Shown: one piece after another, positions 57,615 to 62,405 of the stretch
How the letters are laid out: each line of letters starts with the position of its first letter
Numbering within the stretch: the first letter of the stretch is position 1
From: Aquamicrobium sp. LC103
Lineage (GTDB): Bacteria; Pseudomonadota; Alphaproteobacteria; Rhizobiales; Rhizobiaceae
Direction: 5' to 3'
DNA length: 64,000 nucleotides
Assembly (NCBI RefSeq): GCF_001014615.2
Contig: NZ_LBCQ02000003.1
Coordinates: 186,001 to 250,000, forward strand
Notes under the pieces: generated by a model
Told to the model about the DNA's origin: nothing
What the model saw: only the letters and a program-made list of their open reading frames with translations
Databases searched by the model: none
Program-made: the position numbers and the translations under genes

Positions 57615-58295
57615 TCAGATGCATTTGAAATAGTCGAACGGCTCGCGGCAGGCCGTGCAGCGATAGAGCGCCTTGCAGGCGGTGGAGCCGAATTCGGAGA
57701 CGCGCTCGGTCTCGGGCGCGCCGCATTTCGGGCAATCGACCTGGGTCTCGCCGAACAGCGCGCGGATCGAATTCGATGCGGCGGCCGGCGGCGCGATGCC
57801 GTATGCGGCAAGCTTTTCGCGCCCTTCCGGCGTGATCCAGTCGGTCGTCCATGGAGGCGACATCACGCGCTCCACCCGTGCCTCGAAACCCTCCTCGCGA
57901 AGTGCCGTCTCCACCGCCAGCTCGATCGCCAGCACCGCCGGGCAGCCGGAATAGGTCGGCGTCACCTTGGCCACCGCGACGCCATCGACGATATCCACCG
58001 AACGCAAGATACCGAGATCAGCCACCGTGATGCAGGGAATTTCGGGGTCGGGCACGGCGGCTGCCGCGGCGTAGGCGCGGTGGCGCAACGCTTCCTCTTT
58101 CCTGTCCGCCGACAGGAAACCACCCCCACCCCTTACCCCTCCCCACAAGGGGGAGGGCCTTGGTGTCCCGCAATTCCCGGGAGCGTTCGTGCCGCGCATC
58201 CACGGTCCAGAATCCCCCTCCCCCTTGTGGGGAGGGGGAAGGGGTGGGGGTGCGCAGTCGCCCAGAGCTTCGCGGTCTTCACGCGCAATCGCCAT
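57615..58295 (-). CDS. paaD: Phenylacetyl-CoA epoxidase maturation subunit PaaD, with N-terminal repeat insertion
   Basis: PaaD is a SufT/MIP18-like protein required to make an active epoxidase. The conserved part runs from RAYAAAAAVPDPEIPCITVADLGILRSV through VTPTYSGCPAVLAIELAVE and ends with a zinc ribbon-like VDCPKCGAPETERVSEFGSTACKALYRCTACREPFDYFKC. The product is 226 residues, while PaaD is normally about 165. The excess sits near the N-terminus: after MAIAREDREAL come about 53 residues, rich in Pro and Gly (LPPPHKGEGDSG, PSPLWGGVRGGGG), encoded by a palindromic repeat at 58098-58252. Then the family sequence resumes in frame. ATG 58295 lies 35 bp after paaC and has no strong ribosome site. 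Whether the long form is functional or trimmed is unknown. Confidence 0.88.
   Translation of the reverse strand: MAIAREDREALGDCAPPPLPPPHKGEGDSGPWMRGTNAPGNCGTPRPSPLWGGVRGGGGFLSADRKEEALRHRAYAAAAAVPDPEIPCITVADLGILRSVDIVDGVAVAKVTPTYSGCPAVLAIELAVETALREEGFEARVERVMSPPWTTDWITPEGREKLAAYGIAPPAAASNSIRALFGETQVDCPKCGAPETERVSEFGSTACKALYRCTACREPFDYFKCI
58098..58252. repeat. Large palindromic repeat inserted inside paaD
   Basis: Two arms of about 36 bp (58120-58156 and 58217-58252) are inverted copies that differ at one internal base, around a 60-nt centre. Each arm holds a smaller palindrome of the CCCCTCCCC-ACAA-GGGGGAGG kind. A separate perfect 9-bp hairpin (TTTCCTGTC/GACAGGAAA, 58098-58119) adjoins the left arm. 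The element keeps the paaD frame open, so it adds residues rather than breaking the gene. Confidence 0.85.
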
Positions 58296-58330
58296 GCCGC
58301 TCGGGATGGGAAAACGCTGCAAAGCCGCGC

Positions 58331-59092
58331 TCACCACACCGCTCCCGGATAGGTGCGCTGCATGTATTGCAGGTCGGCGAGCAGATAACCCATCGCCTCG
58401 CCGTGGCGGCCGCCGCGCCCGCCGGTCTGAGGCCATGCCGCTGACGGCATTTCGAGGAAGGCTTCCGCGAAGATGCGCGAGACGGTGGCGTCGAAGGCGG
58501 GACGCAGCGAGGCGGGGTCGGGCGCAATGCCGGCGGCAGCCATCGCATCGCTGACCTCGTCGACCTCGAACAGCTCGTCCAGATAGGGCGCGAGCGCCTC
58601 CACGGCGGCCTGCATCCGGGCAGCGCTTTCCTCCGTACCGTCGCCCAGCCGGATCACCCATTCGCCGCAATGGCGGATGTGGTAGGCGACCTCCTTGACC
58701 GCCTTGGCGGCGATGCCGGAGATCGTCTCGTCCGAGGAAGCCGAAGCCTTTTCCCAGAACGGATGCATGAAGGCGGCGAACCAGAGCTGGCGCAGCATCG
58801 TATGCGCGAAATCGCCATTCGGCCGCTCGACCATGAGGCAGTTGAGATACTCACGCTCGCGGCGCAGATAGGCGAGATCGTCCTCGCTGTGGCCCCTGCC
58901 CTCGACCTCGCCCGCATACTGGTATAGCACCCTCGCCTGCCCGATCAGGTCGAGCGCGATGTTGGGCATGGCGAGATCCTCCTCCAGCATCGGCGCGTGG
59001 CCGCACCATTCCGACAGGCGATGACCAAGGATCAGGTGATCGTCGGCGAGCCGCAGCAGGAAGGTGGCGAGATGGTCGCGCGGGATCGCCAT
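58331..59092 (-). CDS. paaC: Phenylacetyl-CoA epoxidase structural subunit PaaC
   Basis: PaaC is the ferritin-fold partner that stabilises the catalytic PaaA subunit in the multicomponent epoxidase. The 253-residue protein shows LLRLADDHLILGHRLSEWCGHAPMLEEDLAMPNIALDLIGQAR in the first helix pair, REREYLNCLMVERPNGDFAHTMLRQLWFAAFM, and AVKEVAYHIRHCGEWVIRLGDGTEES, all diagnostic. The start is the ATG at 59092, overlapping the paaB stop as TGATG. A GTG one codon upstream is an alternative. Confidence 0.95.
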   Translation of the reverse strand: MAIPRDHLATFLLRLADDHLILGHRLSEWCGHAPMLEEDLAMPNIALDLIGQARVLYQYAGEVEGRGHSEDDLAYLRREREYLNCLMVERPNGDFAHTMLRQLWFAAFMHPFWEKASASSDETISGIAAKAVKEVAYHIRHCGEWVIRLGDGTEESAARMQAAVEALAPYLDELFEVDEVSDAMAAAGIAPDPASLRPAFDATVSRIFAEAFLEMPSAAWPQTGGRGGRHGEAMGYLLADLQYMQRTYPGAVW

Positions 59093-59379
59093 CACATGTG
59101 CCCCACGTCATCCGGGATCTTGTAGAAGGTCGGGTGCCGGTAGATCTTCGACATCGCCGGATCGAAATTCTCGTCCTTCAGTTCCGGATCGGAAGCGGTG
59201 ATGGCCGACGACGGCACCACCCAGATCGAGACGCCCTCGCCGCGCCGCGTGTAGACGTCGCGCGCCGCCTGCAGCGCCATCACCTCGTCGGCGGCGTGCA
59301 CCGATCCGCAATGCTTGTGCGCCAGTCCGTTGCGCGGGCGGATGAAGACTTCCCAGAGGGGGATTTCGTTCTTCGCCAT
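59092..59379 (-). CDS. paaB: Phenylacetyl-CoA epoxidase subunit PaaB
   Basis: PaaB is a small (95-residue) subunit that organises the epoxidase complex. It begins MAKNEIPLWEVFIRPRNGLAHKHCGSVHAADEVMAL and contains ARDVYTRRGEGVSIWVVPSSAI and SKIYRHPTFYKIPDDVGHM, the standard sequence of the family. GGAGG seven bases before the ATG at 59379 supports the start. It is separated from paaA by the inserted VOC gene. Its stop is shared with the paaC start. Confidence 0.95.
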   Translation of the reverse strand: MAKNEIPLWEVFIRPRNGLAHKHCGSVHAADEVMALQAARDVYTRRGEGVSIWVVPSSAITASDPELKDENFDPAMSKIYRHPTFYKIPDDVGHM

Positions 59380-62274: not shown

Positions 62275-62405
62275 CCCCTCACCCGGCTCGCTGCGCGAGC
62301 CACCCTCTTGCCAAGCGGAGAGGAGGGCCGGGAAGGCGCGGGGACGATGCAGCTTCCCCCGTCTCCCCGCCGGGGAGAAGGTGGCCGCGAAACGACCGGA
62401 TGAGG
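62275..62405. repeat. RIME-like mosaic palindromic repeat, copy 2
   Basis: Contains CACCCGGCTCGCTGCGCGAG, CTCCCCGCCGGGGAGAAGG, GTGGCCGCGAAACGACC and GGATGAGG in order, the same modules and order as 38452-38574. It lies between paaR and paaX and ends 8 bp before the paaR stop codon, so it is in the shared transcript or 3' region. No gene is seen in 62213-62413. Confidence 0.75.

Follow-up and report, generated by a model that had tools for sequence, protein, structure and literature searches.

Palindromic elements of several families in frame at the N-terminus of PaaD in Rhizobiaceae

The paaD gene of Aquamicrobium sp. LC103 carries a palindromic element between its probable start codon, which is coupled to the stop of paaC, and the conserved core of PaaD. 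Close relatives carry palindromes of other families at the same site with the reading frame kept. We consider it very probable that a mobile palindrome has settled at this point, is translated as an unstructured arm and is tolerated if its frame is open, and that the site has been refilled by unrelated families. In the proposed mechanism the palindrome would be non-autonomous and would be translated as a proline/glycine-rich N-terminal arm of PaaD; insertions with an open frame would survive, and their encoded residues would be free. In Rhizobiaceae, unrelated palindrome families would have come repeatedly to occupy this flexible site of PaaD, together with linkers of at least two other proteins. 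Translation in the cell, neutrality of the insert and mobility of the element are what we infer from the comparisons below.

The palindromic element in paaD

All positions refer to the window, the whole stretch of 64,000 nucleotides that was analysed (Table 1). The gene is identified as paaD by the FeS_assembly_P and Zn_ribbon_PaaD domains of its product (Pfam, on 57615-58295). The preliminary description had noticed an inverted repeat with arms of about 36 bp plus a hairpin, in a reading frame without stops. The arms are 37 nt long, 97% complementary and 58 nt apart, the hairpin has a 9-bp stem, and the minus-strand frame is indeed uninterrupted by stops across the element. Two of its details have to be corrected. 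It counted about 53 added residues, and there are 59 between MAIAREDREAL and RHRAY. It also took the ATG of MAIARED as the start; the GTG overlapping the paaC stop is the likelier one, and many relatives likewise have a GTG or ATG at this stop, in frame with PaaD. From the coupled GTG, PaaD would be 239 aa long, and PaaD of the uninserted locus L036 would have 165 aa (495 nt).

Table 1. Features of the paaC-paaD region, in window positions
Feature	Position	Strand	Description or basis
paaD	57615..58334	-	239 codons plus stop when read from the coupled GTG; open frame, relatives, Pfam
GTG that overlaps the stop codon of paaC (58331-58333)	58332..58334	-	likeliest paaD start
In-frame ATG (MAIARED)	58293..58295	-	paaD start taken by the preliminary description
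Conserved PaaD core from RHRAYAAAAAVPDPEIP on	57615..58085	-	relatives, alignment, folded region
TTG immediately before the PaaD core	58086..58088	-	sole in-frame ATG/GTG/TTG past the element's last hairpin core
paaC, upstream operon gene	58331..59095	-	Pfam PaaA_PaaC
Palindromic element of family A (132 bp), in the reading frame of paaD	58121..58252	.	inverted repeat, dispersed copies
First arm (plus-strand order), contains the CCCTCCCC/GGGGAGGG hairpin	58121..58157	.	inverted repeat
Second arm of the family-A element	58216..58252	.	inverted repeat
Separate 9-bp hairpin TTTCCTGTC/GACAGGAAA, between element and PaaD core	58098..58119	.	sequence reading; paired in the RNA fold

The minus-strand RNA of 58080-58340 is predicted to fold with -161.8 kcal/mol (z -7.46), and none of 200 shuffles is equally stable. 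An AlphaFold2 model built with 25 aligned PaaD sequences (mean pLDDT 71.3, pTM 0.58) has no secondary structure in residues 1-70, where block means are 46-57 pLDDT, and its fold starts near residue 74. An identity of the element with an Rfam family was rejected; all seven matches lie under the gathering scores and five are microRNA-like matches on the GC-rich hairpin, as expected by chance.

Junctions, reading frames and families among relatives

A paaD gene is present in 135 of 394 genomes of the family. The compared set holds 121 loci, including 3 from other families, and leaves out 18 of 136 matches, at 52-61% identity. The junction, between the paaC stop and the conserved PaaD core, was measured with the DPE motif as its far end; 119 loci are measurable, and L067 and L072, with no usable distance, were dropped. 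Loci with at least 70% identity are called close (n = 57) and the other 62 more distant. The junction spans 49-107 nt in 95 of the 119 loci. Among close loci 36 junctions are short, 26 of them in the coupled frame, and 21 are long, at 128-329 nt. Every one of these 21 keeps the frame of the coupled start, and keeps it open. Palindromes of at least four families account for 20 of them, including partial elements in L089 and L090, and L069 and L087 have the look of decayed remnants. Long junctions are found at just three distant loci. L146 is in frame and element-like, L118 is in frame with no palindrome seen, and L148 has its element in a non-coupled frame, with a stop between. A GTG within the L148 element (L148:520-730) may act as a start.

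The preliminary description had proposed comparing paaD of relatives with and without the insertion. Those without the repeat have short N-termini. The extension was looked for in relatives that lack the repeat and was not seen there; L080 is the sole long close junction without a recognisable palindrome. The comparison supports the earlier suggestion that PaaD would tolerate the in-frame insertion. An assembly or annotation artefact, for which the draft state of some genomes speaks and nothing more, is hardly credible, as the same arrangement recurs with different sequences in many assemblies, including the one-contig genomes G033 and G200.

Of the three sense frames, the coupled one is open over all 21 long close junctions and the other two over 7 and 3; the antisense frames are open over 8, 13 and 11. 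On this comparison of frames we reject chance openness as the whole explanation. Gaps in six aligned junction pairs are 3, 36 or 51 nt long. Each pair consists of two in-frame junctions, so the informative point is only that the gaps split into single multiples of three; some of the pairs may go back to more than one insertion. Differences between paired junctions are flat over the three codon positions (3, 5, 2 for L068/L071; 4, 0, 3 for L082/L085; 23, 18, 20 for L035/L099; 16, 17, 18 for L063/L078; 16, 23, 21 for L031/L062; 8, 16, 12 for L068/L061). The flanking genes of the same pairs, in the same order, have 14, 5, 59; 11, 2, 71; 43, 37, 136; 28, 22, 146; 33, 16, 132; and 46, 40, 135. Selection on the residues of the extension is thereby rejected, since the junctions, unlike the flanking genes, have no third-position excess. 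The best reading is of selfish palindromes that proteins tolerate in their tails and linkers, where the frame would be selected and the residues free.

An alternative opposed to translation of the element takes the palindrome for a leader that is untranslated or dispensable. PaaD would then start after it, here at the TTG 58088-58086, and a GC-rich, stop-poor repeat would look in frame by chance. This TTG directly precedes the core, has a AGGAAAGAGG stretch ahead of it (by eye), and is a possible paaD start in this genome. Frames of the element are also often open: 41 of 78 in the 13 two-arm copies of this genome, the paaD copy included, compared with 0.41 in shuffled copies. An open frame by itself is therefore weak evidence of a coding insertion; the strong evidence comes from comparing relatives. 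Of the 23 loci in which a hairpin core was identified, 11 retain an in-frame start codon after the last one, and the L148 element lies outside the coupled frame. However, the upstream frame is kept throughout the close long junctions, with the other sense frames mostly closed, and 12 of the 23 loci have no in-frame start past the last hairpin core. Starts were tested in 25 loci, namely all 21 long junctions of the close set, two remnants, L146 and L118, and in five (L061, L068, L071, L079 and L069) there is no other in-frame ATG, GTG or TTG between the coupled start and the core. Elements inside a PutA-like protein and a molybdenum hydroxylase, described below, also speak against a leader, and we regard this alternative as quite improbable. 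The preliminary description had left two options, an arm accepted by PaaD or a bypass through an internal start. The comparison favours the first; the second is disfavoured because all 21 close long loci keep the coupled frame and five of the 25 lack an inner start.

Plain neutrality of the insert does not predict how slowly the junctions change. Differences are less frequent at junction sites than at core third positions (10/168 vs 59/339, 7/171 vs 71/339, 61/231 vs 136/308, 51/189 vs 146/339 and 60/210 vs 132/339), and the paired sites are slowest when set against unpaired ones (5/126 vs 5/42, 3/126 vs 4/45, 31/160 vs 30/71, 28/140 vs 23/49 and 37/157 vs 23/53). The slow paired sites may reflect a function of the hairpin or gene conversion with dispersed copies. 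A function is what we would expect if the insertions were selected. The hairpin at the paaC-paaD border would then adjust the dosage of PaaD or shield the upstream message, as is reported for REPs at gene borders, and would be translated only through its position. The hairpin is very stable, and the low counts at paired sites in the first two comparisons, against both unpaired sites and core third positions, fit such a role. So does the location of the strict hairpin-core motif. It has 32 matches in the junctions of 22 loci (4.6/kb), compared with one chance-like match upstream (L102; 0.01/kb) and matches in three loci past the paaE end; in the paaD loci scanned there is none in the paaD core or in the next 100 nt. 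A separate scan of 80 further loci, few of them close relatives, gave 76 distances and one motif-like junction match (L282, Bacteroidetes). Selection for the hairpin nevertheless appears unlikely, given that 36 of 57 close relatives do with short junctions, that L069 and L087 look decayed, that gene conversion could explain the slow arms equally well, and that linkers of other proteins are also hit, where a role at a gene border does not apply. Also doubtful is a version in which the border recruits hairpins. Unrelated families would be captured in parallel because a strong hairpin in the translated part of paaD fixes how much PaaD is made relative to PaaABC, with the residues irrelevant.

Insertion of mobile palindromes, the reading that we prefer, is consistent with the diversity of the junction elements, which we sorted by eye into four families. 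Family A is found in this genome and in L062. Family B occupies L035, L099, L078 and L063 and is partial in L083, L089 and L081, and in L081 a second palindrome sits on top of the B remnant with the frame still kept. Family C is found in L061, L068, L071, L085 and L082, partially in L084 and L090, and as remnants in L069 and L087. Family D is found in L066 and L070 and, less certainly, in L033 and L079. On a tree of paaC and PaaD-core DNA from 57 loci the families are patchy, with eight changes of family state among 22 inserted or remnant rows and six among the 13 clearest; the number becomes 15 when 'none' and L080 count as states.

Families B, C and D are dispersed in the genomes as well. 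Family C has 88-125 matches in G308, G200, G064 and G159 and 22 in G128. Family B has 42-127 matches in G033 (among the matches listed), G154, G171, G333, G278 and G323 and 8 in the draft G275, and is also abundant where paaD has no B insert (e.g. 51 matches in G308 and 55 in G291). Family D has 11-20 matches in G291, G121, G035 and G079. The A copy of L062 scores best, at 118 bits, with dispersed copies in G308, compared with 95 bits with the paaD copy of this genome, and the B copy of L035 scores 180 bits with dispersed copies of its own genome, compared with 152 bits with the paaD copy of G275. In family C, paaD copies of other genera score at least as high as dispersed copies, and L071 scores higher with the paaD copies in G064 and G308 than with dispersed copies of its own genome, so that the C copies in paaD may be partly inherited. 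Since inserted loci share ancestry, the number of independent insertions is uncertain; a cautious minimum is five (A, B, C, D and the second palindrome in L081), and parsimony gives 7-9. If five insertions were independent, all of them would keep the frame with a probability of (1/3)^5, about 0.4%, with an open frame not yet required.

Copies elsewhere in the genome and in other proteins

A BLAST search of the own genome (G000) with the paaD element returned 54 rows, which we count as 22 places. Two are coding (paaD and the PutA-like gene), one at a contig end is unclassified and the others look intergenic; these classes rest on a codon score (table derived from the window) for 21 of the 22 and on detailed reading of 12. 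The two other related palindromes that the preliminary description placed in the window lie near 62364 and 63022; one is C-like and the other a single arm. Three own-genome copies (L009, L012 and L013, near 1501-1640) have one spacer in common, reversed between the arms in L013, and L004 and L007 are apparently one element in opposite orientations (by eye). This pattern of spacers and orientations suggests recent mobility or arm-to-arm inversion. The copies in L009 and L012 have TA at both ends and the paaD copy does not, and there is no close empty site for comparison.

The search for the repeat arm inside other genes of this genome, which had also been proposed, found one arm in frame after the aldehyde dehydrogenase domain (Pfam Aldedh) of a protein that we take to be PutA-like. 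G086 has an A-type element at the same linker. Matches to the protein were found in 122 genomes and 44 loci were read; these two carry the element, and a motif scan found none in the other 42.

Family B has entered coding DNA in G033. Among the matches listed, 32 copies were examined (31 besides paaD, which were scored with the codon table trained on the window), and at least four are coding, the paaD copy among them. Another lies within a molybdenum hydroxylase, where Fer2 and Fer2_2 precede the element and Ald_Xan_dh_C and MoCoBD_1 follow it (Pfam). This protein is one long frame already in relatives with short linkers. Forty genomes had a match, and 7 of the 30 linkers read carry an element or fragment. 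L329-L331 have long perfect arms of 36, 41 and 48 nt, the elements of L332, L333 and L353 look degenerate, L334 is fragment-like, and L354 has a motif-like match in a short linker. Two further B elements of G033 were noticed at protein ends. One (L321:1001-1160) apparently provides the first ATG and first residues of an SLT_2 lytic transglycosylase, before a signal-peptide-like stretch, and the other (L315:954-1181) apparently adds to the C-terminal end of a protein that has no Pfam match.

Relation to known repeats

Palindromes that are read in frame within genes are a known kind. What appears to be new, as far as we are aware, is that one and the same protein site is refilled by unrelated families. 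Among open-licence papers, judged by title and the start of the abstract, we found no report of the paaD site or of one site refilled by several families. With MITEs the paaD element shares terminal inverted repeats. RIME is presumably another alphaproteobacterial palindrome comparable to these elements.

Coding palindromes are best known from Rickettsia. According to two papers (PMC2229807, PMC10969869), the Rickettsia palindromic elements (RPE) are palindromes of about 100-150 bp, intergenic as well as in frame in conserved genes, and thought to be neutral or nearly so. Coding palindromes of the same kind in Wolbachia appear there as a reference title, and in-frame fusion of palindromes or MITEs is described for RPE, ERIC and Correia repeats. 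The paaD element, a dispersed 132-bp palindrome with 37-nt arms at 22 places of its genome, agrees with the RPE in size (about 95-150 bp) and in its terminal inverted repeats, and elements of this kind are likewise in frame in conserved genes (paaD, the PutA-like gene and the molybdenum hydroxylase gene). The host differs, being Rhizobiaceae with a genome of 6.04 Mb and not the genus Rickettsia, and so do the GC-richness of the elements and the several unrelated families at one protein site. The RPE had been named as the classic case at the outset; as an analogy this is apt, by description and not by sequence, and it does not extend to membership.

In our view the small genomes of Rickettsia could tolerate coding palindromes through weak selection. 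Here they are found in genomes that range from about 3 to 6.5 Mb, with one protein site filled by unrelated families across lineages, the frame kept and the residues free. Such repeats can lengthen proteins repeatedly without obvious harm. This amounts to a natural replicated experiment on protein lengthening by mobile DNA, in which the neutrality of the inserts can be put to a direct test. A further suggestion is that annotated N-terminal extensions of this type can be real and not errors of the start site.

Other repeat systems share single features with the elements described here. For ERIC/RU-1 and the Correia 107-bp repeats, repeat-borne open reading frames fused in frame to genes are described (PMC2229807), as in paaD, in other hosts. 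Bru-RS are palindromic repeats of 103-105 bp in a genus related to this host; the source (PMC2267715) marks them as intergenic, and the likeness is again one of description. REP and REPIN sequences are also short palindromes with paired inverted units, and some tagged REPs are reported to lie within coding regions (PMC3733652). The ends of the paaD element, CACCCCCACC and GGTGGGGGTG, have no GTAG/CGTC tag. A RAYT transposase as mobiliser was rejected; Y1_Tnp (PF01797) is absent from the own genome and from five of six other carriers. The only Y1_Tnp match among the seven carriers searched (G200:C1:718770-719093) lies about 2.6 kb from a family-C copy (G200:C1:721651).
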